The notes below the pieces were generated by a model. The model made no database searches and was not told where the DNA came from. It saw only the letters and a list, made by a program, of their open reading frames with translations. This document shows positions 8,622-25,573 of a stretch of 64,000 bases of DNA, piece by piece. The translations under genes and the position numbers were made by a program. The first letter of the stretch is position 1; every line of letters starts with the position of its first letter. The DNA comes from Thalassospira lucentensis (GTDB lineage Bacteria > Pseudomonadota > Alphaproteobacteria > Rhodospirillales > Thalassospiraceae). The DNA lies in contig NZ_CP136684.1 in the NCBI RefSeq assembly GCF_032921865.1, positions 1,718,501 to 1,782,500 of the forward strand, given 5' to 3'.

Positions 8622-8689
8622 TGTGAATTGACTCATAAAATTAGAAACGCGACGCATAAATCTAGAATCTGTGACACATAAAATTAGAA
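8622..8689. repeat. Left-end transposase-binding repeats
   Basis: Three 18-base direct repeats with consensus YGACNCATAAAATTAGAA begin at 8629, 8650 and 8672, spaced 21 and 22 bases apart, about two helical turns. Arrays of this kind are TnsB-binding sites in Tn7-family ends. Confidence 0.85.
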
Positions 8690-8754
8690 CGGGCAGAGCA
8701 AGTTCAAATGAATGCTATGAATTAGCTCTGCTCGTCTTTAATCGTTGAGATTTG

Positions 8755-8784
8755 TTGCATCTGGGCGTCTGGTTAAGTTAAAAT
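8755..8784 (+). promoter_or_regulatory. Candidate promoter of a small RNA or leader
   Basis: TTGCAT (8755-8760), 18-base spacer, TAAAAT (8779-8784). This would start transcription near 8791, just before the long hairpin that follows. Based only on similarity to the sigma-70 consensus. Confidence 0.4.
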
Positions 8785-8790
8785 CTCTCC

Positions 8791-8864
8791 AACAACACCC
8801 CCCCCACGCTTAGCCTGAAGTTCTTAGGAACTCAGTGATGCGCCTCTTGGGGGGTTATTTTTTG
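8791..8864 (+). ncRNA. Putative small structured RNA or fic attenuator
   Basis: A long hairpin occupies the segment. The outer stem pairs the C run (8798-8805) with GGGGGG (8849-8854); inside it CGC (8807-8809) pairs with GCG (8840-8842), CTG with CAG, and AGTTC (8819-8823) with GAACT (8828-8832) around a TTAG loop. It ends in TTATTTTTT. With the upstream promoter-like sequence this makes a roughly 70-base self-terminating RNA. It may be a free small RNA or a leader controlling the fic gene 105 bases downstream. The remainder of 8690-8968 shows only an inverted repeat GCAGAGC/GCTCTGC (8693-8731). Confidence 0.45.
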
Positions 8865-8968
8865 CCAAAATCGCGAGTTGTTGTAGGTTTTGCCTCTTTC
8901 GTGAAATTTATTCACGTCATTATGTGAGCCGAATATGGTGATTAATCGGCTCACGAGGGAGCATTGTG

Positions 8969-10075
8969 ATGGGCAAATGGAACTGGCAGCACAGCGACTG
9001 GCCCAATTTCACGTGGGATAAGCAGCAGCTCCAGGCCCGCTTGCCTTCTGTTTATCATAAACAGGGATACGTGGCCGGATTGGTCAACTCGCAGAACGGC
9101 AGACGAGCCTTAATCACCAAAGCACTTACTGAGAACATTGTTGCTTCTTTTGCAATTGAGGGCGAGTACCTAAACGCAACTGAAGTATCCTATGAAATCG
9201 AGCGAGGGTTTGGCCGACCTTCCTCTTGCGATGAGGCCAAGAGTGTCGGGCTACTGGAGGGAAACGCCGCTGCTTTGATATCAACCGTTTTTGACGAGTC
9301 CTCTAAAGACCTTACTCTGCATCGATTGGGGATGTGGCAGCGCTGCATGTTCGAGAGGACCTACTCGCCAGCTCAAATCGGACAGCCTGCAACATGGCGA
9401 ACTGAAGATATCAAGGTGGTTTCCGGTGGAACTGGTGACCGGAAGATTCATTTCGAAGCCCCTGATGCATCACGCATCGCAATCGAGATGGAAGCATTCC
9501 TTCATTGGTTTGCTTACAGTCGGGAAAGCAAAGAAATAGACCCGGTCTCGCGAGCTGCTTTGGCGCACCTGTGGTTCGTGACCGTGCATCCGTTCGATGA
9601 CGGCAATGGTAGGAGCGCCCGCGCGGTTGCTGATTTGGCACTGTTTCAGTCAGACAAAAATGCTGTCTTGTACCCAATGGCGGCTTACATTTTAGCCGAC
9701 CGAGAGAACTATTACCGAGTGTTGGAGCGAACTCAGTCTTCCGGTTTGGACATAACGGAATGGATGATCTGGTTTTTCAAAACTTTGGAAAATGCACTCG
9801 ACGGGGCGTCAACGAGATTAAGCTGGAATATTGAAGCAAATAACCTCGTGGCAATGCAGCCAGAAAGCCGACTTTTGACGCAACAAGTCAGAATTCTTGT
9901 GATGCTACATGATGATGCGGATCAAAATGTCATAAGCGCATCACAATATGCTGCGATTAATAGCGTTAGTAAGGCGACAGCGACGCGCCACCTTACTGAC
10001 CTGGTCGAGAAGGGCTATCTATGCGTTTGCGAAGGACGCGGTCGTTCGACGAAATACCGTTTGTCAGGCAAATAA
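8969..10075 (+). CDS. Fic family protein (N-terminal DUF4172-like, C-terminal wHTH)
   Basis: 368 residues. The Fic core has the complete active-site motif HPFDDGNGRSAR (about residues 207-218) expected for AMP transfer to a hydroxyl side chain of a target protein. The N-terminus (WNWQHSDWPNFTWD) resembles the DUF4172 region often joined to Fic. SFAIEG (about residues 60-65) fits the autoinhibitory (S/T)xxxE(G/N) motif placed before the core. The last 70 residues look like a winged helix-turn-helix, so it may also regulate its own gene. ATG 8969 is preferred over GTG 8966 because GAGGGAG is then 8 bases upstream. Transposon cargo; the target is unknown and no separate antitoxin is seen. Confidence 0.85.
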   Translation: MGKWNWQHSDWPNFTWDKQQLQARLPSVYHKQGYVAGLVNSQNGRRALITKALTENIVASFAIEGEYLNATEVSYEIERGFGRPSSCDEAKSVGLLEGNAAALISTVFDESSKDLTLHRLGMWQRCMFERTYSPAQIGQPATWRTEDIKVVSGGTGDRKIHFEAPDASRIAIEMEAFLHWFAYSRESKEIDPVSRAALAHLWFVTVHPFDDGNGRSARAVADLALFQSDKNAVLYPMAAYILADRENYYRVLERTQSSGLDITEWMIWFFKTLENALDGASTRLSWNIEANNLVAMQPESRLLTQQVRILVMLHDDADQNVISASQYAAINSVSKATATRHLTDLVEKGYLCVCEGRGRSTKYRLSGK

Positions 10076-10086
10076 TTGATCAGGCA

Positions 10087-11064
10087 TTAGACCATTCCAA
10101 AATCTGGTATGCCCTGACGCATGATTTCGCGAAGAGTTAGAGAATAACGAGAGGGCCGGGCGTCTCCTTTTGGGCGACGAACAATCTTCATTTCGCTGCC
10201 CGTTTCATCAAATTCGATGATCCCGACTTGATGAATGTCCAGAGCGTCAATCGCCGAATTAATTTCTTCTGATGGCCATCGGAACGAGCTGTTTCTGCAA
10301 AGCCATACGTGCCGGAAAAAGCTCGAGCGATAATCGATATCCGATAGCAGGTTCTGGAAAGCGAGTTTGTTGTTTCCGGGAGAGCCGGTCATGAACATGA
10401 AGCCGTCAACCAGCTGTAAGGCGCCATCCTCGCCACAGCGAATGCCAACAGCGTCAATGCTGACGAATTCGAAATCGTATCTTTTAAAATAGATACTGAC
10501 ATCGTCACCTCCATAAAGGAGCGATTTGTGCTCGTCGATCAGAGCAAGCGCGTCTTTTCTGTGAAGGGCGTCTTTGGGCATCAGGAACGTTGGAGCGGCT
10601 GATGAAGAGTATTTGCGGTTTGTTACTTCACTGAGGATTTCCTTGATGCGAACAACCGGGACCTTTTTGTCTCGCATCTCAGCCAAGAGATCGAGTGCAG
10701 CGTCTGGGTCTGCGCTGTGAATACGCGCGAACAATTCTGCAGTGTGAAAGTGACCCAGTACGTCAAACAGGGCATTTGGTTCGATTGCGCGCTGTCCGAG
10801 AATTTCTTGCAGTTTCATTTTTTCGCGATCTGCGATGGCATTTCCGCGGATGAGTGTTGAGCGCATCCGTTGCAATGCGTTGCGTGTGTATCGCGTTTTC
10901 TGAGCAAGCATTTCCCAGAAATGTTCTTTATTTGCAGAGTATTGTTTACCTGCTGGCGTTTTCTCGATCGCGTTAATGAGCATTGCAATATCCGTCCATG
11001 GAAGTCTGCGATCCCTGGCATTATCGAGTTTTGCAAGAAGTTCATCGAACGATTGTGTGCTCAT
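10087..11064 (-). CDS. Unknown protein divergent from tnsA
   Basis: 325 residues, not recognised. The first 80 residues are helical and basic with an HTH-like stretch (KTRYTRNALQRMRSTLIRG). The C-terminal half alternates predicted strands and helices (FEFVSIDAVGIRC, VWLCRNSS, VGIIEFDETGSEMKIVRRP), a layout reminiscent of restriction-endonuclease-like folds, but no complete D-(D/E)XK motif is visible, so this is only an impression. It is convergent with fic (11-base gap) and divergent from tnsA over a 115-base region with repeats. It could be a cargo gene or an accessory or regulatory protein of the element. There is no resemblance to TnsE that I can defend. Confidence 0.6.
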   Translation of the reverse strand: MSTQSFDELLAKLDNARDRRLPWTDIAMLINAIEKTPAGKQYSANKEHFWEMLAQKTRYTRNALQRMRSTLIRGNAIADREKMKLQEILGQRAIEPNALFDVLGHFHTAELFARIHSADPDAALDLLAEMRDKKVPVVRIKEILSEVTNRKYSSSAAPTFLMPKDALHRKDALALIDEHKSLLYGGDDVSIYFKRYDFEFVSIDAVGIRCGEDGALQLVDGFMFMTGSPGNNKLAFQNLLSDIDYRSSFFRHVWLCRNSSFRWPSEEINSAIDALDIHQVGIIEFDETGSEMKIVRRPKGDARPSRYSLTLREIMRQGIPDFGMV

Positions 11065-11141
11065 TTTGATTCTTTTCCACGGTGTTGGAAGTTTCTTTCA
11101 ATTACCCATAGCAGAATTTTTCGATTGTGCAAAGTTGATTT

Positions 11142-11172: not shown

Positions 11173-11179
11173 ATTGTGA

Positions 11180-11827
11180 ATGATGTTTGATCCCCATGCA
11201 CAAAGAAGCAGGAAGGTTGTCCGTCGGACAACGCATCGCGTTGTAGGTCGTTTTCCAAGCTTGAAATCCAGTCGGGTCGTCCACTGGGAGTCCCAGCTCG
11301 AGCGCGACATGATACGTTTGTTGGAGTTTGATCCGGCGGTGTTGTCATATCGGGAGCAACCAGAGCCTCTTACTTATTTCGATAGCGGAAAAAGGCGTAA
11401 ATACACACCCGATTTTATCGCGCAGATGACGACTGGCGTAACTGTCTTTGAGGTGAAGCCTTACGAACAGTCCATAACAAGCCCCTTGAAAGAGAGACTT
11501 GTGGCATTCCGGGAGTACTACAGCGTGCAAGGCATAGATTTCCTGGTGATGACCGAGCGCGAAATCCGAAAAGAACCGCGACTTTCAAACATCACCAAAC
11601 TCTTGCGGTATCAGCGCGAAATCGTGAATCCCGCCAGAAAGCAGGTTGTTATCAATCTCATTAATAGCGGTGTTCAGACCCTTGCGGGGTTGTTCGAACA
11701 TTTGAAAGAGCATGGTGTTCCGTTCTCGCAGGTCTATGCACTCATTGCTCAAGGCATTCTTGGCGTCGATATTAATCAACCGATCGACAACGACAATACA
11801 CCTGTCTGTTTGCGGAGGGCTTCATAA
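11180..11827 (+). CDS. tnsA: TnsA-like transposon endonuclease
   Basis: 215 residues. TnsA cuts the 5' ends of the element so that, with TnsB, it leaves by cut-and-paste. Catalytic residues of the restriction-enzyme fold are visible: an N-terminal acidic helix (HWESQLERD, about 35-43), the aspartate in RRKYTPDFI (D78), and the ExK pair in VFEVKPYEQ (E91, K93). The C-terminal 80 residues correspond to the region that contacts TnsC in Tn7. Its TAA stop overlaps the tnsB ATG by one base (TAATG), showing translational coupling. Confidence 0.9.
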   Translation: MMFDPHAQRSRKVVRRTTHRVVGRFPSLKSSRVVHWESQLERDMIRLLEFDPAVLSYREQPEPLTYFDSGKRRKYTPDFIAQMTTGVTVFEVKPYEQSITSPLKERLVAFREYYSVQGIDFLVMTEREIRKEPRLSNITKLLRYQREIVNPARKQVVINLINSGVQTLAGLFEHLKEHGVPFSQVYALIAQGILGVDINQPIDNDNTPVCLRRAS

Positions 11828-13830
11828 TGGTTGCTGTTCGTATCGGTATGGGCACTGAGATTTCTGTTGGGGAAACGATCTACGCTGTTCGTCGCTGTCT
11901 AGAAGGGGATATTCTTCAGCTTGAGTCAGAAGACGATGGTCAATTGGTGAAAATCCCAAGACCTGAATTGGCGTCCTCCGTGGCTAACGGTGAAGCTTCC
12001 ATCATCGTAGGTGATCGCAAGCGGCAGATACCTGAACGACAGGACCTCAGTGCCCTTCCTGAAAAAGATCGGGATGAACTTCGTCGCAGGCTTGTCTACG
12101 TAAAATTAGTTGAGAAGCCGAGGGTTGCAGAAAGTGGCGCTGCCTTGATGAAAACCAGCATAGAAATTGGTGCAGCGCAGCTCAACGACCTTAAACCGCC
12201 GTCAGTTGCAACTCTCTATAACTGGTGGAAACTTTACCGACAGGCTGGCGGCGACCCTGTCGCTTTGGTGCCGCAAACAAAGCGTCGCGGGAATCGACAA
12301 CGGCGATTTTCTCCTGAGGTGCTTGAGATTCTTCAGAGCGTTATTAATGAGCGATTTCTGGTTACTTCTAGGCCTAGGCCGACAGATGTTTATTCCGCTG
12401 TTGTCGTCGAGATCGAAAGACTGAATGCATATCGACCATCGTTTGATCAACTCGCGGTTCCGACACTTAGAACTCTCTATCGCGAAATCGAGAAACTCGA
12501 GCCCTACACATACTTAAAGGGCCGATACGGGAAATACATTGCCGACAAGGAAACACGACACGTGGGAAAAGGTGCGTTCTCCTGTCGGCCGCTTGAGCGG
12601 GTTGAGATTGACCACACGTTGCTCGACATCATCGTCTATGATCCAGAACTAGGCATTCCTTTGGGGCGGCCAACACTCACATTGATCATTGACCATTTTT
12701 CACGGATGCCTTTGGGCTTTTATCTCGGCTTCGAAGCGCCAGGTTCAGCGAGTGTAATGATGGCGCTGCGCAATGCGATTGGAACCAAGGAATGGGTCAA
12801 CGAGCGTTACCCTGACATTGAAGGCACATGGCCTTGTTATGGCGTGCCTGAGGTTCTTGTTACGGACAACGGGCCTGAATTCCATTCCAAAGACCTGGAA
12901 ATCGCGTGTGCCCAACTGGGTATCACCATTCAGCATAACAAAGTGAAGTCGCCATGGACCAAAGGCGTTGTGGAGAGGATTTTTGGTGAGATCAACCGAT
13001 CTCTGCTGTGTGATGCACCGGGCAAAACCTTTCACAACAAGGATGCACGCTCAGAGAATGATGCGGTTGGAGAGGCTAGCGTTCCTGTCGCGCTTCTTGA
13101 GCATGTCTTGTGTAAATGGATTGTGGAAATTCATGCCAAGAAGATGCACGAGGGTATACGAGCAATACCGCTTGAGAGATGGACTGAAGGTGTAGACGAG
13201 TTTCCTCCTCGGCTTATTTCCGATCAGGAGGACCTCAATGTTCTTCTTTCCTGCTTCAAGGAAGTTCGGAAAATTCACCCCAAAGGAATCGTCATAGAGG
13301 GCATTTGGTACAGCTCAAGAACGCTGACCGAGCTCCGCAACAGTTCTACCAAGGATTTTCAGGTAGATATGAAGTTTGACCCGACCAATATGGGCCGCAT
13401 TCATGTCCGTGATCCCAGAACCAATACCTATTTCAATGTCCCGGCATTGGATCCCGAATACGCAGAAGGACTCGGGTTATGGCCGCACAAGATCTTTCGT
13501 AAATGCCTTCGAAAACTGGGATCGCGTCAGATCGACACCACTGAACTTGCGAAAGTTAAAGAATACATTCACGAGCTTATTCATGAAACGGCCAAGACCA
13601 AGAAGCGAAAACGCACAACGAATGCACGGATTGGACGTTTTCGTGAGTCTTCAAAACAAGCATCCACGAATGAAGATCGTATGGTCGAGCCGAACACCTC
13701 TTATGATATCTCATTTGACGCTGTGCCAACGGTCGAGGAGGAAGATTATCGCGACAACCTGGTCGAAGATGACGATTTTCTTGCTGACGGCATGCGACGT
13801 ATTCAGGCGGTCGGAAAGGATGACGCATGA
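11827..13830 (+). CDS. tnsB: TnsB-like DDE transposase
   Basis: 667 residues; an integrase-fold transposase that binds the end repeats, cleaves 3' ends and joins them to target DNA. An N-terminal DNA-binding region with HTH-like PPSVATLYNWWKLYRQAGG (about 124-142) precedes the catalytic core. The acidic triad is readable: D262 (RVEIDHTLLD), D347 (LVTDNGPEFH) and E383 (KGVVERIFGEINR), with 35 residues between the last two. A basic C-terminal tail (KTKKRKRTTNARIGR) and acidic end follow. The start overlaps the tnsA stop and the end overlaps the tnsC start by 4 bases (ATGA). Confidence 0.93.
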   Translation: MVAVRIGMGTEISVGETIYAVRRCLEGDILQLESEDDGQLVKIPRPELASSVANGEASIIVGDRKRQIPERQDLSALPEKDRDELRRRLVYVKLVEKPRVAESGAALMKTSIEIGAAQLNDLKPPSVATLYNWWKLYRQAGGDPVALVPQTKRRGNRQRRFSPEVLEILQSVINERFLVTSRPRPTDVYSAVVVEIERLNAYRPSFDQLAVPTLRTLYREIEKLEPYTYLKGRYGKYIADKETRHVGKGAFSCRPLERVEIDHTLLDIIVYDPELGIPLGRPTLTLIIDHFSRMPLGFYLGFEAPGSASVMMALRNAIGTKEWVNERYPDIEGTWPCYGVPEVLVTDNGPEFHSKDLEIACAQLGITIQHNKVKSPWTKGVVERIFGEINRSLLCDAPGKTFHNKDARSENDAVGEASVPVALLEHVLCKWIVEIHAKKMHEGIRAIPLERWTEGVDEFPPRLISDQEDLNVLLSCFKEVRKIHPKGIVIEGIWYSSRTLTELRNSSTKDFQVDMKFDPTNMGRIHVRDPRTNTYFNVPALDPEYAEGLGLWPHKIFRKCLRKLGSRQIDTTELAKVKEYIHELIHETAKTKKRKRTTNARIGRFRESSKQASTNEDRMVEPNTSYDISFDAVPTVEEEDYRDNLVEDDDFLADGMRRIQAVGKDDA

Positions 13831-14837
13831 GTATTTCTGTAAACCCAGACAAGCTTGCTGGCATCAATCAGGTGATGGGTGATGTTCTGATCCGCCATCG
13901 TTCCTTCAAAACCGGTTTGGCACGGCTTGAGGAATGCATGCAGTCCTACACAGGCTATGGCGAGCCGGTTTGCATGCTTTTACACGGCCCCTCAGGGGGT
14001 GGGAAGTCAACGCTTGCAAAAGCTTTTCTCGTCGATAACCAGCCTGTCGAAACGCAGGATCGTAAACTGGTTCCGGTTCTGAGCGCCGTAATTCCCGTGC
14101 CGGCAACGATGAAGAACATGGCGTCCGAACTTCTCGATAAGCTTGGCGACCCTCTGTCAGATCGGGGCACACTTGAGCAAAGAACCAAGAGGCTTCGCAA
14201 GTTGCTCCGGGAGTGCGGTACGAAACTCATCATTCTTGATGAGTTTCAGCACTTTATCGATCGCAAGAGCGAGCGGGTTATCCTCGATGTTTCAGACTGG
14301 CTGAAGAACCTCATTTCCAACACATCGATCCCGGTGGCTTTGGTTGGGCTTCCGTATTCGAGAAATGTGCTGTCGGCAAATGAGCAACTGATGCGGCGTT
14401 TTAGTTATCAAACTGAACTCTCGCCATTTGATTGGAATGACAAGGCGGAGTGCGCAGAGTTTAACAGGATTCTTGACGCGGTTGATGGAAAGCTTGCAGA
14501 GACCCTGGGACGCAGAAGCGATTTGAAGGGCCAAGGTGTTCGCTGCCATGCTGCGACGAAAGGCCTGATTTCTCTTCTGATCAAGTTAATCCATGGCGCC
14601 GCATATGAAGCAGCCAAATGCAATGCTTCGTTGATAACCCGGCAGCATCTCGCCAAATCGTTCAGGGAGCGCCTTGTACCAGACAAAGCAGTTCTCAATC
14701 CGTTTCTCGATAGTTGGGACGGCCAAGCAATCGACCCACTTCCCGAGAGCAGGCATATGTCTGTGGCGGGATGCATCCCGTCGATTAGCGCGAGATCACG
14801 TTCTCAAAACGTCAACGAAGTCCTCTCAGCAAGGTGA
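13827..14837 (+). CDS. tnsC: TnsC/TniB-like AAA+ ATPase regulator
   Basis: 336 residues. In this family the ATPase forms filaments on DNA, links the target selector to the transposase and gives target immunity. Walker A GPSGGGKST is at about residues 54-62 and Walker B LIILDEFQHF at about 134-143; a sensor-like LVGLPYSRN follows. The shorter length (Tn7 TnsC is over 500 residues) is closer to TniB-type ATPases, while the presence of tnsA places the element with Tn7. Translationally coupled to tnsB upstream. Confidence 0.9.
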   Translation: MSISVNPDKLAGINQVMGDVLIRHRSFKTGLARLEECMQSYTGYGEPVCMLLHGPSGGGKSTLAKAFLVDNQPVETQDRKLVPVLSAVIPVPATMKNMASELLDKLGDPLSDRGTLEQRTKRLRKLLRECGTKLIILDEFQHFIDRKSERVILDVSDWLKNLISNTSIPVALVGLPYSRNVLSANEQLMRRFSYQTELSPFDWNDKAECAEFNRILDAVDGKLAETLGRRSDLKGQGVRCHAATKGLISLLIKLIHGAAYEAAKCNASLITRQHLAKSFRERLVPDKAVLNPFLDSWDGQAIDPLPESRHMSVAGCIPSISARSRSQNVNEVLSAR

Positions 14838-14842
14838 GACAC

Positions 14843-16708
14843 ATGTCAGGTGATCAGTCACTATTGGTGCGTCCTAAGCCGGAAAAGGCTGAGAGCTTCC
14901 GAGGATATCTGCTCAGGGTTTCGACGGAAAATGGTTATCACAATGCAAACTGGATGCTGAGGCAGCTTGGTATTCATCCACGCACATATTTGCCGCGTGA
15001 TGACATTACAAAGTTGGCAAGCGCGCTAAATCTCCAGGACCGCGAACTTTCAAATATGCAGAACCGAGTTGTGGCGCCTCGGTGGGTTCGTGTGGGGGCG
15101 CATGAAGTTCATATCTGTGCACAAGAAAGGCGTTCTTTTCGCTATTGTCCTGAATGCTTGAGCGAAGCTCCGTACCATCGTGCCGTGTGGGATCTCAAGC
15201 CTATGAGTGCCTGTCCAAAACACGGGACCTATCTGCTGGAGAGTTGCAGGAAATGTAATCGACGCGTTGGCTGGGCACGTGAAAACCTTCTGGAGTGCGC
15301 CTGTGGTGCGGATTTGAGGCCGTTTCGGCCGCGTTTCGCACCCGATAAGACAGTAGATTTCTGCAGGTTGCTAGAGAAGCGTTTCAACGGTCAGCCGGCA
15401 GACGAAAACTGTGCCTTGCACCCAGCATTTCAGAAGTTGAGTTTCACGGACCTTCTGAATCACACGATGTTCTTGGCGGCTTATATTTCCGGTCGCGGGC
15501 GTGGAACCGGCCGACAACTGTTTTACAATCTTACCGCAGATGCATTGCGCGAGGTATTTGATCGGGTTTCTGTGATTCTTGCTGATTGGCCGAACGGATT
15601 CCACCTGCTGCTCGATGAGGTGCGGCAATTCACTGAACAGGATGTTGGAAAGCATGTCGGGCTCGAGGCGGAATTTCGATCGCTCTACACCAATCTGTTT
15701 CGCAAGCAGCAGGAGGTTGAGCATCTGCATCTCATCCGGGCCGAATTTGCCAAATATATTGAAAGCAAATGGTTTGCTGGGTTTGTCGTGCCAACCAGTA
15801 AACGATTGTCTGATGAATGGTCCCAATATCAGTCGTTTGTCACGGTTGCGGAAGCGGCACGACGCCTTGGTATTCATCCAAGTATCCTGAGACGTGATAT
15901 CGCCGAGGGGAGTTTGGCTGCAACCACAAGACAGATGCAAAGCAGATGCCTTCGCGTCGTAGAAGTCTCGGAGGTTGAGCGGTACCGAAACGCGCGCGAG
16001 AACCTGCTTGGAACCAATGACGCTCAGGAACTGTTGGGCATTTCAAAGCACCCACTCATGAAACTGGTGAATGCTGGCCTGATCAAATCCGTCAAGGGGC
16101 CGAAGGTTGATGGTTCACAGCACTGGGCATTCAAGAAACAGGACATCGATGAATTCATTGCATCTTTGGCAAAGCAAGCGACCTATCGTCAGTTCGCCGA
16201 TGAGCCTGTGACTTTTGCTAAAGCAGTGCGTCGTTGTACCGCCAAAGGGCTTTGTATTGTTGACTTGGTTCAGGGTTTGCTCGGTGGCGAGTTGAAAGCG
16301 CTGAAGCGCTCGACAAAAGTGATCAATCTCAAAAATCTGTTCTTCAATGACGCAGACTTCCGAGCGTTTCTTTACAACGAAAAGCGGACGATCAAATGGG
16401 CCGTTACCATTCGTGAAGCTGCAAGGATGCTTGGGCTAAATGAAGAAGCAACACGTCATCTCGTGCATAAGGGGTTTCTTGAAACAACCTCTGTCCCGTT
16501 AGATGGGCGTCTTCGCAGACAGGTTTCATTGGATGCGATTGAGCGATTCAAGGCGACTTATGTCTCCGCTTCAAGCTTGGCAGCCCACAAGAATACTTCC
16601 GCAAGATCCGTCGTTGCCCAGCTACAAGAATTGGGAACCAGCCCTGTTACCGGGCCAGCTATTGATGGAAGCCGTCAATACTTCTTCAGACGATCCGCGA
16701 CAGCATAG
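14843..16708 (+). CDS. tniQ: TniQ/TnsD-like target-site selector
   Basis: 621 residues. The N-terminal TniQ domain has LLVRPKPEKAESFRGYLLRVS and zinc-binding clusters CPEC (about 102-105), CPKH (124-127), CRKC (135-138) and a CAC pair near 152. After a helical middle come up to four excisionase/MerR-like HTH units near residues 334, 394, 521 and 574, two followed by a DGSxxxxF strand. TnsD-type selectors bind a fixed chromosomal sequence and recruit TnsC, so this protein is the likely reason for insertion after gyrB. A GTG at 14834 overlaps tnsC, but ATG 14843 with AAGG 8 bases upstream is preferred. Confidence 0.87.
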   Translation: MSGDQSLLVRPKPEKAESFRGYLLRVSTENGYHNANWMLRQLGIHPRTYLPRDDITKLASALNLQDRELSNMQNRVVAPRWVRVGAHEVHICAQERRSFRYCPECLSEAPYHRAVWDLKPMSACPKHGTYLLESCRKCNRRVGWARENLLECACGADLRPFRPRFAPDKTVDFCRLLEKRFNGQPADENCALHPAFQKLSFTDLLNHTMFLAAYISGRGRGTGRQLFYNLTADALREVFDRVSVILADWPNGFHLLLDEVRQFTEQDVGKHVGLEAEFRSLYTNLFRKQQEVEHLHLIRAEFAKYIESKWFAGFVVPTSKRLSDEWSQYQSFVTVAEAARRLGIHPSILRRDIAEGSLAATTRQMQSRCLRVVEVSEVERYRNARENLLGTNDAQELLGISKHPLMKLVNAGLIKSVKGPKVDGSQHWAFKKQDIDEFIASLAKQATYRQFADEPVTFAKAVRRCTAKGLCIVDLVQGLLGGELKALKRSTKVINLKNLFFNDADFRAFLYNEKRTIKWAVTIREAARMLGLNEEATRHLVHKGFLETTSVPLDGRLRRQVSLDAIERFKATYVSASSLAAHKNTSARSVVAQLQELGTSPVTGPAIDGSRQYFFRRSATA

Positions 16709-16828
16709 GATGCTAGCTTTAACGGATCGGTTGTGGACGGAGCCGGCGCGAATTGATTGACTCTTCTTCAGTATGCCCACAATCTGATGACTGTGACGCA
16801 ACGACAGCAGTGGTTGCCTACTTTCCGA

Positions 16829-17202: not shown

Positions 17203-19397
17203 TGGGGATCGCTCGTCAGGATCTTACGAATTTCATATTTGAAATCGCGAACAAGCTTCGTGGACCATATCGGCCGCCGCAATACCGCAAGGTAATGTTG
17301 CCGATGACGGTTCTTCGTCGCCTCGACCTTGTTCTTCAACCCTCCAAAGACAATGTAATTGCGGAGTACGAGAGACTTCAGGCATCTGGCCTAGAGGGTG
17401 AAGCGCTGCACAAGGTTTTAGCTCGAAAAGCGAGTGGTGGAAGGCAACAGCCAATATACAATATCAGTCCGTTCACTTTCGAGAAGATGCTTGGTGACCC
17501 GCCCAATGTTGCGACCAACTTGGTATCATTCATCAATGGCTTCTCTCAGAATGTGCGGGATATTTTTGAGCGTTTTGAGTTCGAGGCTGAAATTGAAAAG
17601 CTCGACAAATCCAATCGCCTATTTCTCATTATCAAGGAATTTACAGACCCCAAGGTCAGGCTGCATCCGAACGACTTGGACAATGCAGATATGGGCGACG
17701 TTTTTGAGGAACTCGTAAGGCGCTTTAACGAGCAGGCCAACGAAGAGGCCGGGGACCACTTTACGCCTCGTGAAGTCATTCGACTGATGGCGGAGCTTGT
17801 CTACACAGAAGAAGAGGACGTTTATAAACCAGGGATCGTTCGGACCATTTATGACCCTACCTGCGGAACCGGTGGGATGCTTTCCGTCTCAGAAGACGTA
17901 ATCAAAAAGAAAAATACCCAAGCTTACCTAGAACTTTTCGGTCAAGAATATAACGCTGAAAGTTGGGCCATATGCTGCTCTGATATGCTGATCAAAGATG
18001 AGGCGGTAGACAACATCGTCTATGATGACACTTTGACAGACGACGGACACAGCGAACGTAAATTCCACTATATGCTGGCCAATCCTCCGTTTGGAGTTGA
18101 GTGGAGGCCGCAAGAAGATTTTGTCAAAAAGGAACATGAAGCGCTTGGTTTTGCCGGACGATTCGGGCCGGGCCTCCCTACCATTCGGGATGGGGCCACA
18201 CTGTTCCTGATGCACATGATGTCAAAGATGCATCCTGCACCAAGAGATGGTGGTGAAGGTTCAAAAATCGCGATCGTTTTCAACGGCTCCCCTTTATTCA
18301 ATGGCGACCCGGGGCCAAGCGAGAGCAACATCCGGCGATGGATTATCGAGAACGACTGGCTTGATGCCATTGTGGCCTTGCCGGACCAGCTTTTCTACAA
18401 CACAGGCATCCTTACCTATATCTGGCTGGTTTCAAACCGGAAGCCTGAGCACAGGCGCGGCAAGGTTCAGCTCGTCGATGCATCTCGTCATTTCGTCAAA
18501 ATGACCAAGAGCAAAGGTGACAAGAGAAACCGAATTGCAGGCACCGAAGACGGGGACACGGAAAACCAGATCGCGGAGATCGTCCGTCTCTATGGAGATT
18601 ACACGGACGGAGATTCATCACGCGTACTGGTCGATGGTAAGCATGAAGATCGGGTATGCAGCCGAATATTCGACAACAGGGACTTCGGCTATTTAAAGGT
18701 TACTGTTGAACGCCCACTAAGGCTTAACTTTCAGCTTTCCAAAGAACGCATCGAAAAAATCAAAGAAGAGACTGCATTTGCAAATCTGGCAAAATCAAAA
18801 AAGAAATTTGGCAGCGATGCTTACAAGGAAGAAGTGGCGGCCGGCGAAGAACGCCAGAAAGCAATTTTTGACGCGCTCAGTGCTTCGATATCAAATCAGC
18901 TGTTCAAGGATCGCGACGAATTCACCGAACACCTAGACGGTGTCCTTGGCGATCTAAAACCGAAAATTCCAGCAGCTCTGACTAAGGCGCTTGTCAGCGC
19001 GTTAAGCGAAAAAGATCCAACAGCCAATGAATGCTATATCGCTAAGCGAGGTGGTGAGCGGGTAAAAGAGCCTGATCCCGATTTGCGAGATATTGAGCTC
19101 GTCCCGTTACCCGATGATGTCAGCCTCCCCTTGCCGGTAGATTATGATCGGGATGCCGACAATTCGCGCCTGCTCACCCTCGTGCAGGATCACTGTGAAG
19201 ACTATTTGGCACGTGAAGTGACGCCCTATGTTCCAGATGCCTGGATGGACCACTCCAAAACCAAAGTCGGCTATGAAATTCCCATCAATCGACATTTCTA
19301 CGTCTATAAACCACCCCGCGAACTATCCGAAATCGAAGAGGATATCAAAAACCTCGAAAAGGATATTCTCGCGCAGTTGAACAAGGTCGTGTCATGA
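17202..19397 (+). CDS. hsdM: Type I restriction-modification methyltransferase subunit
   Basis: 731 residues. N6-adenine methyltransferase subunit, which works with HsdS to protect DNA. Seen: N-terminal helical HsdM domain, SAM-binding motif I DPTCGTGGM (about residues 218-226), and catalytic motif IV NPPF (about 294-297). It is longer than the classical 500-residue HsdM; the extra C-terminal region (about 540-731) has charged helices and ends in a coiled-coil-like EIEEDIKNLEKDILAQL. The ATG at 17202 follows a GGAGAAG site; an in-frame GTG at 17166 is less likely. The next gene starts inside its stop (ATGA overlap). Confidence 0.92.
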   Translation: MGIARQDLTNFIFEIANKLRGPYRPPQYRKVMLPMTVLRRLDLVLQPSKDNVIAEYERLQASGLEGEALHKVLARKASGGRQQPIYNISPFTFEKMLGDPPNVATNLVSFINGFSQNVRDIFERFEFEAEIEKLDKSNRLFLIIKEFTDPKVRLHPNDLDNADMGDVFEELVRRFNEQANEEAGDHFTPREVIRLMAELVYTEEEDVYKPGIVRTIYDPTCGTGGMLSVSEDVIKKKNTQAYLELFGQEYNAESWAICCSDMLIKDEAVDNIVYDDTLTDDGHSERKFHYMLANPPFGVEWRPQEDFVKKEHEALGFAGRFGPGLPTIRDGATLFLMHMMSKMHPAPRDGGEGSKIAIVFNGSPLFNGDPGPSESNIRRWIIENDWLDAIVALPDQLFYNTGILTYIWLVSNRKPEHRRGKVQLVDASRHFVKMTKSKGDKRNRIAGTEDGDTENQIAEIVRLYGDYTDGDSSRVLVDGKHEDRVCSRIFDNRDFGYLKVTVERPLRLNFQLSKERIEKIKEETAFANLAKSKKKFGSDAYKEEVAAGEERQKAIFDALSASISNQLFKDRDEFTEHLDGVLGDLKPKIPAALTKALVSALSEKDPTANECYIAKRGGERVKEPDPDLRDIELVPLPDDVSLPLPVDYDRDADNSRLLTLVQDHCEDYLAREVTPYVPDAWMDHSKTKVGYEIPINRHFYVYKPPRELSEIEEDIKNLEKDILAQLNKVVS

Positions 19398-20293
19398 CCG
19401 CGGGTAGCAGAGGCCAATCACTGGAGCTCTATTTTATCAACGGCAAGCCAGACGGGATGCTGACAGCTGAGGTGTTCAATTGGACAGGCCATGTCCTAAT
19501 GACGCCGCGCACCCAAATATCTGAAGCCCTGAAACGCCCAGAGGCACAATTTACCGGCGTTTACCTCCTGTTTGGCGAGAACGATGGGAAACCTTGCGCC
19601 TACATTGGCGAAGGCGAAGATATGTCCTATCGCATTCGTTCTCATGAAGCGCGCAAGGATTGGTGGACCCAGGCGATCCTGGTCACGACCCAGGCCAACA
19701 GCCTTAACAAGGCACATATCCGTTATCTGGAAGCGCGCCTGATTGAAGAAGCCAGAAACATCGCGCGTGTTGGTCTGGATAATGGAACAGCCCCTACGCT
19801 TCCTTCCCTAAAAGAAGCCGAGCGCGCCAACATGGAGGGCTTCCTCGACTATCTCCTTATGGTCTTACCTGCCATTGGGATTGACGCATTTAAGCAGAAC
19901 AAACGCCCTAAGCTTGCAGAAGCATCGAAGGAAGATATCACGTCGCCGATATTTGAACTTCACACCCGTAAACACGACCTCCGTGCCCGAGCGCTGATTG
20001 AAGATGGTGACTTTGTTGTTCTTGAAGGTTCCGAAGCAAGGCCAGAATGGGGTGGCAAGGGGTCCGAGCTTACATCTTACGCCAAGCTTCACGGCGAGCT
20101 GTTGGGCAGTGGTGTGCTGACGATTGCGGGCCCTAAAGCCAAGTTCACCCAGAATTTTGCTTTTGCCAGCCCCAGTGCGGCCGGCGCTGTCGTAAATGGT
20201 CGACCGACTAATGGCACCATCGAATGGAAGATCGAAGGCAGCAGCAAAACCTACAAGGATTGGGAAGCTGAAAGATTGGAGGCCTCGGAATGA
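19394..20293 (+). CDS. GIY-YIG nuclease-domain protein with DUF4357-like C-terminus
   Basis: 299 residues. A GIY-YIG-like module is visible as GVYLLFG (about 55-61), CAYIGEGEDMSYRIRSHE (about 68-85) and the likely catalytic glutamate in YLEARLIEEA (E113). The C-terminal region (ALIEDGDFVVLEGSEARPEW, then GVVNGRPTNG-like end) resembles DUF4357, often joined to this nuclease domain. It overlaps both hsdM and hsdS by four bases, so it is an integral part of the operon rather than a chance neighbour. Possible roles are an extra nuclease activity or control of HsdR; neither is shown by sequence. Confidence 0.8.
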   Translation: MTAGSRGQSLELYFINGKPDGMLTAEVFNWTGHVLMTPRTQISEALKRPEAQFTGVYLLFGENDGKPCAYIGEGEDMSYRIRSHEARKDWWTQAILVTTQANSLNKAHIRYLEARLIEEARNIARVGLDNGTAPTLPSLKEAERANMEGFLDYLLMVLPAIGIDAFKQNKRPKLAEASKEDITSPIFELHTRKHDLRARALIEDGDFVVLEGSEARPEWGGKGSELTSYAKLHGELLGSGVLTIAGPKAKFTQNFAFASPSAAGAVVNGRPTNGTIEWKIEGSSKTYKDWEAERLEASE

Positions 20294-21579
20294 GTTTAAG
20301 CGCCTCTAACAAAAGCACTTGGGAAACGAAGCGGCTAAGGTTCCTTGCTCGTATTAATAAATCCAGAATCCCAAAAGAACTAGAAGAGACTGACGAAGTT
20401 TCCTTTATTCCCATGCCTGCTGTTGGAGAGTATGGCGGCTTAGAGCTTTCGGAAACAAAGCCAATTGGAGATATTGGCGCCGGATACACGCCTTTTGTGG
20501 AAGACGATGTCTTAGTCGCCAAAATCACACCATGCTTTGAAAATGGCAAAGGGGCAGTAGCACGCGGCCTAATAAACCAAGCAGCATACGGCACCACTGA
20601 ACTCCATGTTGTGAGCTGTGGCCCAGAACTTTTACCTGATTTTGCTTTCTATCTTTCTATAAGCGATCCGTTTAGGGGGTTTGGTGAAGGCAGTATGTAT
20701 GGTGCTGGTGGTCAAAAGAGAGTGCCTGAGAGCTTTATCAAAGACTTCCTAGTATCCATCCCAACTTTGGAGCATCAAAAACGCATATTGAGTTTCTTAG
20801 AAACCAAACTCGGCGAGATCGACGACCTAATCGCGAAAAAGCAAGAAATGCTGAAGCTTCTTGCCGAGAAGCGGTCAGCCTTAATTACTCGCGCGGTTAC
20901 CAAGGGTTTGAACCCTGATGCCCTCATGAAGTCAAGCGGATACGATTGGCTTGGCGACATACCCGGACATTGGGAGATAAAGCGCCTTCGGTTCATTGGA
21001 CGACCTCAGAATGGCATAAACATTGGAGGTGAGTTCTTTGGAAAGGGGCATCCATTTGTGAGTTACAGCGATGTCTTCAATAATTTTGAGCTACCTAGCA
21101 ACATTTCCGGTTTAGTTGAAAGTTCAGATGATGACCGCAAAAGATATTCAGTCCAAAGAGGGGATATTTTTTTCACCAGAACCTCGGAAACTATAGAAGA
21201 AATTGGAATGTCAGCGGTTAGTATGCGAACGATTCCAGACGCCACTTTTGCAGGGTTCTTGATCCGCGTTAGACCCTCTAGAAAAGTTCTACTCCCAAGC
21301 TTCGCAAAGTACTATTTCAGAAATACCAGTTTGAGGTTCTTTCTCGTCAAAGAAATGAACCTAGTTACACGCGCGTCTTTGGGACAGAACCTGTTAGGTA
21401 ACTTGCCAGTAGTCATTCCCTCGTTGGCTGAGCAGGAACAAATCGTAGGATTTATTGAAACTGAAGCCACAACACTCGATGCTGTCACCTCAACCATTGA
21501 GTCGGCCATCCTGCATTTAATTGAATATCGATCATCTGTAATCAGTAAAGCTGTCACTGGTGAATTGGAGGTTGCCTAG
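20290..21579 (+). CDS. hsdS: Type I restriction-modification specificity subunit
   Basis: 429 residues. HsdS recognises the bipartite DNA target. Two target-recognition domains (about residues 1-165 and 225-390) are separated and followed by conserved helical spacers, for example PTLEHQKRILSFLETKLGEIDDLIAKKQEMLKLLAEKRSALITRAVTKGL and PSLAEQEQIVGFIETE in shorter pieces. The phrase YDWLGDIPGHWEIKRLRF starting the second half is typical. Overlaps the GIY-YIG gene by 4 bases; the next gene starts on the following base. The recognition sequence cannot be deduced. Confidence 0.93.
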   Translation: MSLSASNKSTWETKRLRFLARINKSRIPKELEETDEVSFIPMPAVGEYGGLELSETKPIGDIGAGYTPFVEDDVLVAKITPCFENGKGAVARGLINQAAYGTTELHVVSCGPELLPDFAFYLSISDPFRGFGEGSMYGAGGQKRVPESFIKDFLVSIPTLEHQKRILSFLETKLGEIDDLIAKKQEMLKLLAEKRSALITRAVTKGLNPDALMKSSGYDWLGDIPGHWEIKRLRFIGRPQNGINIGGEFFGKGHPFVSYSDVFNNFELPSNISGLVESSDDDRKRYSVQRGDIFFTRTSETIEEIGMSAVSMRTIPDATFAGFLIRVRPSRKVLLPSFAKYYFRNTSLRFFLVKEMNLVTRASLGQNLLGNLPVVIPSLAEQEQIVGFIETEATTLDAVTSTIESAILHLIEYRSSVISKAVTGELEVA

Positions 21580-22173
21580 ATGCCCTTGAGCGCTGAAGGA
21601 TATTTTGGGCATATCAAGGCCTGTTTGAACCAAGCATTTATTCAGGACCACGGGACAGGGGAATCTATAACCCTAAAGGAAAAAATAGACGGCCAATCTA
21701 AGCCATTGACCGTTTCTTTCCCTTTTCAAGGTGAAGCGTTTTCGATCAATCTTGATCTGAAGTCGACAAAGAAGGGTGAGGACCCAAGGCTCTTTAGGTT
21801 TCTTGATGACGAGGCTAAGCCGTGGGCAAAAAAATGCGACTTCGTTGTTTTTCATCGAATGCCTGTGGGTATATACGCGTACCTTATCGAATTCAAATCC
21901 AATGGAATTGATGGCGCGGGGATCAAAGCCCAATTGGATGCGAGCATCAATTGGCTGAAGTCTCTCAAACAAGTTGTCGCGCATTATTACGGCCACGAAC
22001 GCGAACTTACTGTCCAAAAATTTGTATTTAGTTCGAATACAAATCCAAGGGCATATCTGGACTCGCATGGAAAATACCTGAAGGCCGATCCAACAATCAG
22101 GTTTTATCACTATGAGGCTTTGAAGGGTCTCTCGCTCGGCGAACTTGAAAACAATATGGCCGACGAGATTTAG
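21580..22173 (+). CDS. PD-(D/E)XK-like protein of the type I operon
   Basis: 197 residues, no family recognised with certainty. A restriction-endonuclease-like active site can be read: KKCDFVVFH supplies D87 and YLIEFKSN supplies E104 and K106, followed by an amphipathic helix (KAQLDASINWLKSL) as in this fold. It is translated directly after hsdS (no gap) and just before hsdR (8-base gap), in the same direction. It could be an accessory nuclease, a degenerate immunity or regulatory factor, or a separate defence component carried with the restriction system. Confidence 0.6.
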   Translation: MPLSAEGYFGHIKACLNQAFIQDHGTGESITLKEKIDGQSKPLTVSFPFQGEAFSINLDLKSTKKGEDPRLFRFLDDEAKPWAKKCDFVVFHRMPVGIYAYLIEFKSNGIDGAGIKAQLDASINWLKSLKQVVAHYYGHERELTVQKFVFSSNTNPRAYLDSHGKYLKADPTIRFYHYEALKGLSLGELENNMADEI

Positions 22174-22181
22174 GGGGCAAA

Positions 22182-25100
22182 ATGTCAAAGCATAAAGAAA
22201 TCAGATTTGAAGAAGCCATTGAAGAGTCCCTCCTTGCGGATGGCGGTTATTTCAAGGGCGATTCCGACAGCTTCGATCCTTTATTTGCGCTATACCCCCG
22301 CGACGTGATCAGTTTTGTTGAAGCAACCCAGGACAAGAAGTGGCAGGCGATCAAGGCCTTGCATGGGCCAAAGGCAGAGGATGCCTTGCTATCCGCACTC
22401 TCACGCGAGCTGGGCAGCAAAGGCGCTCTGACTGTTCTACGCAAAGGATTCAAGTGTTATGGAAAGACTTTCGATCTTGCCTATTTTGCACCCAACACAG
22501 GCATGAACCCGGAAGCCAAAGCGCTTTATGACAAGAACGAATTGAAGGTCACACGCCAGGTTCACTTCAGCGAAAAGACCCCCAACCAGACCCTGGACAT
22601 GGTGTTGTCGTTGAATGGCCTCCCTGTTGTTACGCTAGAAATTAAAAACGCAATGACAGGTCAGACGGTCGATCATGCCATCAAGCAGTACAAGTTTGAC
22701 CGCGACCCCAATGAACAAATCTTCAAATTCAAGGAGAGGGCATTAGTTCACTTTGCCGTGGACACGGATCAAGCCTTCATGACGACGCGGCTCTCTGGGG
22801 GCAAGACCTTCTTTCTTCCCTTCAACAAGGGGTATGAAAATCGGGCGGGTAATCCACCTCAGGATGGGGACTATAGGACATCGTATCTGTGGAAGGATAT
22901 TTTGGCGCGCGATAGCCTAATGGATATCTTGGCACGCTTCCTTCATCTGCAGGTTCAGGAACGCCGGGTCGTCACCAAGAAAGGCATCAAGGTTGAAAAG
23001 CGGGAGACGATGATCTTCCCCCGCTTCCACCAGCTTGACGTTGTGCGAGAGCTTGTTTCTCATTCGAAGGCAAAGGGCTCCGGCCACAACTACCTCGTTC
23101 AACATTCTGCCGGATCGGGTAAGTCCAACTCGATTGCCTGGCTCGCTCATCGCCTCTCCAGCCTGCATGACGGTGCAGGGCAAGCAAAAGTCTTTAACTC
23201 GGTCATTGTGGTTACGGACAGACGCGTATTGGACCAGCAACTACAAGACACGATCTACCAGTTCGAGCATAAGCAGGGTGTGGTTCAGAAGATCGATAAA
23301 GATACGCGCCAGCTGACCAAAGCCTTATCGAGTGGTGTGCCCATCATTATCACCACCATACAGAAGTTTCCATTTATCGCTCAAGCTTTGGACACGATGT
23401 CGCAGAAGGGCGAGACGATTGATATTGATACCTCTAACAAACGATTTGCCGTGATTGTCGATGAGGCGCACTCCTCACAATCAGGCGAAACAGCCATGGA
23501 GTTGAGGAAAGTCCTTAATCGCTCAGGCATCGAAAACGCAATTGCATCCGAGTTTCTGGATGAGGAAGAAAACCTATCAGAAGAAGCCAAGAAAGAGTTG
23601 ATTGCCGAGATGATGAAGCGTCCTCGGCAACCGAACCTGAGCTTTTTTGCCTTTACGGCAACACCGAAATTCAAGACTCAGGTAATCTTCAACGAACCCA
23701 ATCCAAGGACGAACACAGCACCATTTCATACGTACTCAATGCGGCAAGCGATTGAGGAAAAATTCATCCTGGATGTCTTGGCGAATTATACGACATACAA
23801 AAGGTTCTTCGGCCTAGTTCAGCAAATGGAAGATGATCCAGAAGTGCCCAAGAGCAAAGCGGCCAAGGCCTTAAGTCGCTTTGTCTCCATGCACAGCTAC
23901 GACATCTCCCAAAAAGTTGAGATCATCGTGGAGCATTTCCGGTCTTCTACGAAACATAAGATTGGCGGTAAGGCCAAAGCCATGGTGGTGACAGGCTCCC
24001 GAATTCATGCAGTTCGCTACAAACTGGCATTTGACAAATACATTCAGGAGAAGGGCTATGATGATGTGCGGTCCTTGGTGGCTTTCTCCGGCGATGTGAG
24101 CGACCCAGAATTGCCGGGCCACACCTTTACAGAGGTTGGCATGAACTCAGGCATCAAGGAGCGGGAGCTGCCGGAGAAGTTTGCTACTGATGAATTCAAG
24201 GTCTTGCTGGTGGCTGAAAAGTACCAGACGGGTTTTGATGAACCTCTTTTGCATACGATGTATGTGGACAAGCGCTTAGCTGGTGTTCAGACCGTTCAAA
24301 CGCTCTCCAGACTAAACCGCATGACGTCCGGTAAAGAAGACACTTTTGTCCTCGATTTCGTTAATGAACCAGAAGAAATCTACAAAGCCTTCAAGCCTTA
24401 CTACGAGGTTACGCCTCCAGGTGAGGCCACTGATCCGCACCAGCTTTACGACTTGCAGCACAAGATTGAAGAGTGGCGTCTCTTTGATCAGTCGGAGCTA
24501 AACGCCTTCTGCAATGTCTGGTTCCAAAAGCATGTGGAGACGGCTTCCGCAGATCATATGAAGCTGAATGCGATTATTGATCCGTGTGTTGAGCGCTTCA
24601 AAAAGCTCGATGACGAGCAACAGGAAAATTGCAAGTCACAGCTGGAGAGTTTCAGGCGGCTATATGCCTTTCTTGCCCAAGTCATTCCTTATCAGGATAC
24701 CAGTTTGGAGAAGCTCTATGTCTTCGCACGTTTCCTGCTGAAAAAGCTGCCTCGGCGGGATGATGGCGGGGTCTTTGAGTTGGACGAGGAAGTTACTCTC
24801 CAATACTACCGCCTGCAAAAGATGAGCGAAGGCGCAATTGATCTTTCTGAAGGCGAAGCAGAGCCTCTTAAGGGGCCAACTGAAGTCGGAAGCCGTAAAG
24901 CCGAGGAAGAGCTAGTTCCCCTGTCCACCCTAATCGAACGCCTGAATGATCGATTTGGGACTGATTTCACTGAAGCCGACCGACTGTTCTTCGAACAGGT
25001 TGCCGAGGCCGCCACCCAGGATGCGACCCTGAAGGCCGCAGCTGAGGTTAACACGATTGAGAATTTTGCTCTCGTGTTCGACAAGATGCTTGAGGGCCTT

Positions 25101-25229
25101 TTCATCGAACGGATGGATGGGAACGAAGCAATTTTCGCGAAGCTGATCGCAGATAAAGACTTCCGGCGAATCGCCAATGAGCACCTTTTGAAGGATGTTT
25201 ATGAGCGTCTATCGAAGGCTAGAGTCTGA
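22182..25229 (+). CDS. hsdR: Type I restriction endonuclease/translocase subunit
   Basis: 1015 residues. The motor and nuclease subunit that translocates and cuts unmethylated DNA. Seen in order: nuclease domain with D139 (QTLDMVLSL) and E153/K155 (VTLEIKNA), superfamily 2 helicase motif I QHSAGSGKSNS (about 307-317), motif II VDEAHSSQSGE (427-430 for DEAH), motif III FFAFTATP, and motif VI-like QTLSRLNRM. The C-terminal helical region binds the methyltransferase core. Intact; last gene of the operon. No terminator was found in the 344 bases before the right end. Confidence 0.95.
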   Translation: MSKHKEIRFEEAIEESLLADGGYFKGDSDSFDPLFALYPRDVISFVEATQDKKWQAIKALHGPKAEDALLSALSRELGSKGALTVLRKGFKCYGKTFDLAYFAPNTGMNPEAKALYDKNELKVTRQVHFSEKTPNQTLDMVLSLNGLPVVTLEIKNAMTGQTVDHAIKQYKFDRDPNEQIFKFKERALVHFAVDTDQAFMTTRLSGGKTFFLPFNKGYENRAGNPPQDGDYRTSYLWKDILARDSLMDILARFLHLQVQERRVVTKKGIKVEKRETMIFPRFHQLDVVRELVSHSKAKGSGHNYLVQHSAGSGKSNSIAWLAHRLSSLHDGAGQAKVFNSVIVVTDRRVLDQQLQDTIYQFEHKQGVVQKIDKDTRQLTKALSSGVPIIITTIQKFPFIAQALDTMSQKGETIDIDTSNKRFAVIVDEAHSSQSGETAMELRKVLNRSGIENAIASEFLDEEENLSEEAKKELIAEMMKRPRQPNLSFFAFTATPKFKTQVIFNEPNPRTNTAPFHTYSMRQAIEEKFILDVLANYTTYKRFFGLVQQMEDDPEVPKSKAAKALSRFVSMHSYDISQKVEIIVEHFRSSTKHKIGGKAKAMVVTGSRIHAVRYKLAFDKYIQEKGYDDVRSLVAFSGDVSDPELPGHTFTEVGMNSGIKERELPEKFATDEFKVLLVAEKYQTGFDEPLLHTMYVDKRLAGVQTVQTLSRLNRMTSGKEDTFVLDFVNEPEEIYKAFKPYYEVTPPGEATDPHQLYDLQHKIEEWRLFDQSELNAFCNVWFQKHVETASADHMKLNAIIDPCVERFKKLDDEQQENCKSQLESFRRLYAFLAQVIPYQDTSLEKLYVFARFLLKKLPRRDDGGVFELDEEVTLQYYRLQKMSEGAIDLSEGEAEPLKGPTEVGSRKAEEELVPLSTLIERLNDRFGTDFTEADRLFFEQVAEAATQDATLKAAAEVNTIENFALVFDKMLEGLFIERMDGNEAIFAKLIADKDFRRIANEHLLKDVYERLSKARV

Positions 25230-25573
25230 GCCCAATTGTACCGGTTGAAATTGAGCTATGGATTCCCGATTTTATTCTTCAAACCACAATTGATGCGACT
25301 TCATGTTAATTTACCCACTCCAAAATAAATAATTGCATGAAAGATTACTTGGTCAGGCAGTCGTAATTGGCGTCAGGAACTAAGAATTTTAACATAAAAA
25401 GTTGGAATTTCTTTGTAGTTCTGTCCTCTCAAGGTGTTGATTTAAAGCATATTTTTAAGGTGTGAGAAATTTCCAATTAACTCTGTCAAGTTCATCGAAT
25501 TTTATGTGTCAAAGGCGTTGCGGTTTCTAGGGGTTTAGCAAAAGTTGATTCCAGATTTGTGCGTCAATTCACA
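25230..25573. repeat. Right end of the transposon with binding-site repeats
   Basis: A+T-rich, no gene seen. Read from the right terminus inward, repeats matching the left-end consensus occur at 25549-25566 (TGACGCACAAATCTGGAA), 25494-25511 (TGACACATAAAATTCGAT) and 25471-25488 (TGACAGAGTTAATTGGAA), with a weak copy at 25525-25542. Spacing is less regular than at the left end. Different numbers and spacing of sites at the two ends are normal for Tn7-family elements. Confidence 0.8.

Follow-up and report, generated by a model that had tools for sequence, protein, structure and literature searches.

What placed a block of transposition and restriction genes directly behind gyrB in the alphaproteobacterium Thalassospira lucentensis, and does its position reflect a choice of target? 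The block, with a G+C content of 0.49 against 0.55 in its flanks, occupies positions 8622-25573 (16,952 bp) of the 64,000-nucleotide stretch that we analysed (contig NZ_CP136684.1, assembly GCF_032921865.1, forward-strand positions 1,718,501 to 1,782,500; hereafter the window), in a host genome of 4.73 Mb and two contigs. The preceding gene, gyrB (6149-8608, + strand, 819 aa; Pfam DNA_gyraseB, DNA_gyraseB_C and Toprim), lies outside the block and is left intact, with the insertion 13 bp 3′ of its stop codon. All parts of a complete Tn7-like element are present. We propose that the block is a cut-and-paste transposon of a gyrB-homing family, in which the TniQ protein would recognize the 3′ end of gyrB as attachment site, and we put the probability of this reading at roughly 0.86.

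The boundaries of the element can be read directly from the DNA. The inward-reading TGTGAATTGAC is found exactly at both termini, at 8622-8632 on the + strand (the gyrB-proximal end, on the tnsA side) and at 25563-25573 on the - strand (the distal end), giving 11-bp inverted repeats. Because the window holds two matches with up to one mismatch, both at the termini, and 1.61 would be expected by chance, the 11-mer by itself is weak evidence. Each terminus is flanked by AGGTG (8617-8621 and 25574-25578), a 5-bp target-site duplication. These direct matches confirm the ends and flanking repeats reported in a preliminary description of the locus, which a model had made from the sequence alone. The decisive test of the boundaries is provided by another genome of the same species (G007, locus L004), in which the site is unfilled and joined, with a single AGGTG at the junction predicted from the filled site and 99.07% identity over 643 bp.

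Three 18-mers lie inside the left terminus (8629-8646, 8650-8667 and 8672-8689), spaced by 21 and 22 bp. A degenerate pattern for TnsB-type sites, written by hand from these three, was searched with up to three mismatches; the left sites (8629-8689, + strand) are perfect, and the window has nine matches against 3.85 expected, a number reached by 0 of 100 shuffles. At the right end (25494-25565, - strand), two sites are clear, at 25549-25565 with one mismatch and at 25494-25510 with two. A third has about four mismatches by manual count and was missed by the pattern, so the earlier claim of three repeats at each end stands for the left, and its ‘three recognisable’ repeats on the right were slightly generous. 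TGT...ACA ends with repeated TnsB sites, together with the 5-bp duplication and the empty site, are features of Tn7-like elements. The tnsA-side end, which from gene order we take to be the equivalent of Tn7R, faces gyrB as Tn7R faces glmS. A 5-bp duplication was seen in both copies with readable ends and flanks, the second being a shrunken 6.2-kb copy in a relative (G012) that has both ends and the matching duplication ATGAC. In G016 the two ends, located on different contigs, did not match.

Because a single empty relative alone gives no direction, the insertion could instead be old, with G007 emptied by precise loss. However, the G007 site is uninterrupted at 99% identity, nearly half of the sampled members of the genus (14 of 29) have no end behind gyrB, and the precise loss of one duplication copy is unusual for this class of element. 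We regard such a loss as very unlikely. That the insertion is recent, as suggested earlier, is supported by the unfilled site of G007 and by the open reading frames of the element.

The transposition core of the element appears intact. It consists of tnsA (11180-11827, 215 aa, predicted endonuclease; Pfam TnsA N 2.5e-13), tnsB (11827-13830, 667 aa, predicted DDE transposase), tnsC (13827-14837, 336 aa, predicted AAA+ regulator; Pfam TniB 2.2e-30) and a tniQ/tnsD-like gene for a putative target selector (14834-16708, 624 aa; Pfam TniQ 2.2e-16 and HTH_17 3e-19), all on the + strand. All four are open throughout and overlap by 1-4 bases (TAATG at tnsA/tnsB, ATGA at tnsB/tnsC, GTGA at tnsC/tniQ), in agreement with the coupled frames reported before. 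The proteins contain what we take to be the characteristic motifs of TnsA, the DDE motif of TnsB, the Walker A and B motifs of TnsC and the zinc finger of TniQ. A TnsB-type DDE transposase accompanied by TnsC and a TniQ/TnsD protein, with TnsA beside TnsB, is the gene set of a Tn7-like element.

To see how general the position behind gyrB is, we draw on one scan of GTDB genome contigs with an alignment of five TniQs, in which 105 stretches matched the pattern and 41 loci were confirmed, spanning alpha-, beta- and gammaproteobacteria. For 26 of the 41, the contig also contains gyrB, located upstream and, in every one of the 26, co-oriented with tniQ; among these, some 29 kb separate gyrB from tnsA at L083, and L104 and L105 retain only a tniQ fragment. 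For a further 13, the locus is on another contig, but the gyrB of that genome has a family end directly behind its stop. The other two could be assigned to neither class: L101, for which no gyrB was found, and L106, a weak Vibrio fragment. An end begins 2-24 bp behind the gyrB stop in 39 of the 41 loci. Distances were measured at 57 gyrB loci in all (the 39 loci, further members of the genus and of the order, and L142, remnants included). The 27 alphaproteobacterial ends begin 4-24 bp behind the stop, most commonly 12 bp (9/27), and the 30 beta- and gammaproteobacterial ends 2-16 bp, most commonly 3 bp (11/30). The coding end of gyrB is conserved, as expected of this gene, and insertion takes place in the variable sequence behind it. 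The window element shares the two hallmarks of the gyrB-homing family, an end within about 25 bp of the gyrB stop and tns genes in gyrB orientation. By these sequence comparisons, the 3′ end of gyrB is the landing site common to the whole family, a point absent from the preliminary description.

The family is sparse: at 1e-10, a TniQ profile found relatives in 11 of the 385 genomes searched across the class, several of the matches being partial. TniQ matches were also present in 23 of 72,556 plasmid records, of which two places were examined (L142 and L143). At L142, the element lies on an Azospirillum record listed as ‘plasmid’ and adjoins the gyrB of the same replicon; L143 is considered below. 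In Methylobacter sp. KS41 (L112), a second end is present about 45 bp inside the first behind gyrB, as repeated insertion at this site would leave.

A recurrent position need not mean that the site is recognized. The region behind gyrB might be a passive island hotspot, into which elements insert loosely and where they survive because they do no harm, with TniQ not reading gyrB at all. This would suit the many genomes in which the region is occupied, one-ended remnants among them, as well as the TniQ relatives located elsewhere, and binding of TniQ to gyrB is itself a proposal. Nevertheless, survival alone would not be expected to give all 26 same-contig loci a single orientation, nor to place an end no more than 24 bp from the stop in 39 of 41. 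As a control, gyrB position was checked in 22 of 42 genomes with a TnsB relative, nearly all of other TnsB lineages; 12 weaker-match genomes were left out. The sole gyrB-adjacent TnsB among the 22 belongs to a member of the family, in G086. The remaining TnsBs are on other contigs or at least 0.4 Mb from gyrB, with linkage across contig breaks still possible, so non-family relatives were not seen at gyrB in the genomes checked. We therefore consider a passive hotspot improbable.

Several observations do weigh against homing by this TniQ family. The ends were picked by eye within 60 bp of the gyrB stop, which biases the distances toward short values. The gyrB-linked TniQs are not one exclusive clade, with L186 and the plasmid copy L143 falling among them. 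G190, which carries L186, has an element with a 25%-identical TniQ elsewhere and an empty gyrB site, and G084 (L185) has one with a 26%-identical TniQ elsewhere and a different family end at gyrB. Within the order, the TniQ profile finds matches at 1e-20 in 30 of 317 genomes; many of these are partial or belong to elements away from gyrB, the elements of G001, G002, G006 and G023 being examples of the latter. A TnsC tree made by a quick method did not unite the alpha and beta/gamma groups. Finally, 10 of the 15 Thalassospira genomes with a family end have no family tns genes, as described below. L143 itself, on the conjugative Pseudomonas plasmid pXWY, is a relative with an IS3-family gene at the expected position of tnsC, and no gyrB match was found in the 26 kb read. 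Taken as they stand, the comparisons indicate that close TniQ kinship predicts the gyrB site and that distant kinship does not.

We propose recognition of gyrB by TniQ because the consistent site, distance, orientation and 5-bp duplication parallel Tn7 and because the C-terminus of the protein carries helix-turn-helix units and a family tail, behind an N-terminus whose matches are TniQ and TnsD proteins; that the protein reads gyrB DNA directly would be the simplest explanation. With the end structure, distance, orientation and duplication observed directly, and with protein roles assigned from the families, transposition might proceed as follows. TniQ would act as a TnsD-type selector, its long C-terminus bound to the conserved 3′-terminal coding DNA of gyrB and its zinc-finger core in contact with TnsC, which in turn would recruit TnsA and TnsB. 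TnsB, bound to the repeated sites, and TnsA, acting at the 5′ ends, would cut the element at its TGTGAATTGAC ends. Joining would then occur a short distance behind the gyrB stop, in one orientation and with a 5-bp duplication, leaving gyrB intact, and a hairpin in the proximal end would probably take over from the terminator pushed to the far side.

Homing to gyrB could in principle be guided by RNA, as in the type I-F3 CRISPR-associated transposons (CASTs), to which the core proteins are closest by solved-structure search. The element and the gyrB end have no word longer than 13 bp in common, a length at the limit of what chance gives (reached by 1 of 40 shuffles). Yet this is far below a full guide, there is no cas gene among the proteins of the element, no direct repeats of at least 20 nt occur in the three intergenic stretches checked, and the length of TniQ and its many helix-turn-helix units resemble those of direct binders. 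A CAST-type guide was rejected on these grounds, and we consider RNA-guided homing extremely unlikely.

The kinship of the core was examined by solved-structure search and in trees. The nearest chain to TnsB is TnsB of Tn6677 (6e-90; TnsB of Tn7, 1.1e-28), and the nearest to TnsC is VchTnsC (2.2e-40), a chain of 330 aa. In a TnsB tree of 54 rows, several of them long-branched, the window groups with three other alphaproteobacterial gyrB elements (100/98) and, at the next level, in a 28-row group with more alpha- and with beta/gammaproteobacterial gyrB elements (94/92). This group also includes one long row, L046, of no known gyrB location, and the gyrB-adjacent Azospirillum element L142 has its TnsB elsewhere in the tree. 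The Tn402 and Tn6022 rows form another group (100/100), as do the I-F3 rows (91/82). The window TnsB stands apart from the former and far from that of E. coli Tn7, and membership in Tn402/Tn5053 was rejected for this reason. By sequence, then, the core resembles Tn6677 and type I-F3 rather than classical Tn7 or Tn402. The earlier inference of a branch distinct from classical Tn7 was right, as the tree and the nearest solved relatives indicate; the short TnsC on which it leaned is already known in this class from VchTnsC. I-F CASTs have been placed within a fourth TnsB clade, mostly of proteobacteria but including a cyanobacterial branch (Benler et al., PMC8649781), and the TnsB neighbours of the window would fit that clade as it is described there. 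The smaller contig of the window's genome contains a 304-aa open frame that is 34% identical to part of TnsB (G000:C1:109644-110402; L002, L063); in the 19 kb read, no match to tnsA, tnsC or tniQ reached 1e-6.

Divergent from tnsA is orf325 (10087-11064, - strand), a conserved gene of the alphaproteobacterial branch with no significant Pfam, PHROG or PDB relative. A search of the order at 1e-5 detected it in 15 of 317 genomes, 14 of which have tns genes or a gyrB end nearby; in the fifteenth, G131, the contig with orf325 was outside the stretches read. Identity with TnsE was rejected (profile against Tn7 TnsE, hhalign probability 0.1). Most likely, as a guess from its divergent position, orf325 is an element-specific regulator or accessory factor of this branch. 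In 6 of 8 beta/gamma loci examined, a small gene judged by eye to be Xre-like precedes tnsA.

Among the 29 Thalassospira genomes, 15 have a family end behind gyrB (degenerate copies in G027 and G008), and family tnsB, at about 90% identity or more, is present in five. In the ten end-bearing genomes without family tns genes, no right end (up to two mismatches, with a site nearby) was found within about 20 kb (14.6 kb for G024), and for this reason we call these copies remnants. Two-ended non-autonomous islands were likewise rejected for the stretch read, larger islands being possible. Damage is also seen in G018, where tnsB is split by a stop, in G016, where tniQ has a frame change, and in G012, which is without tnsC. 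The G004 copy is open where read, and its right end was not found in that stretch. The Thalassospira genome G028 encodes, in addition to the normal GyrB, another full-length GyrB-like protein with 49% identity to the window GyrB (G028:C1:411126-413552).

Insertion also changes what follows gyrB. In the empty site, a host hairpin with a T-rich tail (25590-25614, + strand) lies 24 bp behind the gyrB stop, and the element displaces it to its far side. A hairpin followed by a T-rich tract inside the left end (8691-8733, + strand) is a candidate replacement terminator. A strict detector scored 19 of 55 ends; its background was 9 hits in 1100 shuffles and 1 in 82 interior windows, but the opposite strand gave 13 in 55. 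It recovered 10 of 14 empty sites and missed the window's own end. A lax detector did not discriminate (48/55 ends, 46/55 opposite strands, 124/220 shuffles, 49/73 interior windows). With a hairpin cut-off of -17 kcal/mol, chosen after the data were seen, all 15 Thalassospira ends, which differ in sequence, pass. The same cut-off lets through 3 of 120 shuffles, 11 interior windows out of 73, 27 flank windows out of 110 and, among the reverse complements, 5 of 15. Because the cut-off was post hoc and the two other detectors gave weaker or no contrast, replacement of the displaced terminator by the proximal hairpin is a suggestion, not proof. Keeping gyrB transcription terminated would be a plausible reason for such a hairpin.

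The remaining genes are best read as cargo, an anti-phage type I restriction-modification system and a Fic protein that the element would spread. From the gyrB side, the order is the Fic gene, orf325 on the opposite strand, tnsA, tnsB, tnsC, tniQ, hsdM, a PDC-S14 gene, hsdS, a PD-T4-4_B-like gene and hsdR, with all cargo genes on the + strand. The Fic-family gene (8966-10075; Pfam DUF4172 and Fic; PADLOC SoFic 2.9e-35) is also present in three further copies of the element from Thalassospira (L052, L053, L054), at varying distance from the left end. Domain and defence-profile matches identify hsdM, for the type I methyltransferase (17166-19397), and hsdS, for the specificity subunit (20290-21579), and domain matches identify hsdR, for the restriction subunit (22182-25229). 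Between them are an accessory gene of the PADLOC PDC-S14 family (19394-20293; 1.5e-113) and a gene for a small protein weakly like PD-T4-4_B (21580-22173; 6.6e-08) with no Pfam match. In Herminiimonas (L086, 3708-4730), a cargo frame between gyrB and tnsA resembles, by eye from its translation, a reverse transcriptase, with a small helix-turn-helix gene beside it.

Because gyrB is an essential gene that almost every bacterium has, the site behind it would be a natural safe harbour comparable to attTn7. Homing to gyrB may account for islands that recur at this position in Thalassospira and in other proteobacteria, and it points to where more cargo could be sought. A selector free of CRISPR from an I-F3-like branch would also bear on the origins of CASTs. 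We advance tentatively, as a proposal that may well prove too broad, that gyrB is a general, undescribed attachment site of protein-guided Tn7-like elements across the proteobacteria; that the TniQ lineages keep to two set spacings, of about 12 bp in alpha and 3 bp in beta/gamma; that the elements bring gyrB a replacement terminator, which gives the proximal end a value even when the remainder has decayed; and that orf325 is a new kind of component, either a regulator or a second selector. A review names glmS, parE, comM, yhiN and tRNA genes as sites and contains no mention of ‘gyrB’ (PMC11406308); gyrB would add a target to this list. The word is absent from the main text of two surveys (PMC10293859, PMC8649781), and in the text available from PMC12452197 it appears as a host-tree marker. 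We did not find gyrB as a Tn7-like attachment site in the literature searched, and subscription papers or supplements could hold it.

Compared with known systems, the element combines features of several. Like Tn5053/Tn402 and Tn6022, it has a TniB-sized ATPase; its TnsB lies outside their group, and it has tnsA, unlike the Tn402 stretch viewed, in which no TnsA is annotated. Tn6677, which with Tn6900 represents the I-F3a and I-F3b CASTs, supplies the nearest solved TnsB and TnsC, but these elements are CRISPR-guided, have a shorter TniQ and occupy a separate branch of the TnsB tree. The window element, with no cas genes and no CRISPR array in the three intergenic stretches where one was looked for, falls outside type I-F3. 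Tn7017, compared here by description only, is a type I-F3 CAST in which a second TniQ directs protein-guided homing to parE (PMC11406308), and its TnsC branch is described as mostly without Cascade I-F (PMC10293859). Its homing to parE parallels the protein-guided homing proposed for the window element, to the paralogue gyrB; the latter element differs in having no Cas genes, one long TniQ and a gyrB target. Tn7 inserts in fixed orientation and with a 5-bp duplication about 20 bp past the glmS stop, its TnsD protein being bound to the final 36 bp of that coding sequence (PMC2918618). No TnsE was named among the genes of the window element in domain searches, and with its gyrB site it departs from classical Tn7, which has TnsE and the glmS site. 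Its family targets gyrB instead of glmS, with the end 2-24 bp behind the stop rather than about 20, and it has a short TnsC and only a distantly related TnsB (1.1e-28). What it shares with Tn7 of E. coli is TnsABC, the 5-bp duplication and insertion in one orientation shortly behind a conserved gene (PMC2918618), as well as a TniQ core that aligns with residues 5-174 of Tn7 TnsD (hhalign E 7.9e-06, probability 84).

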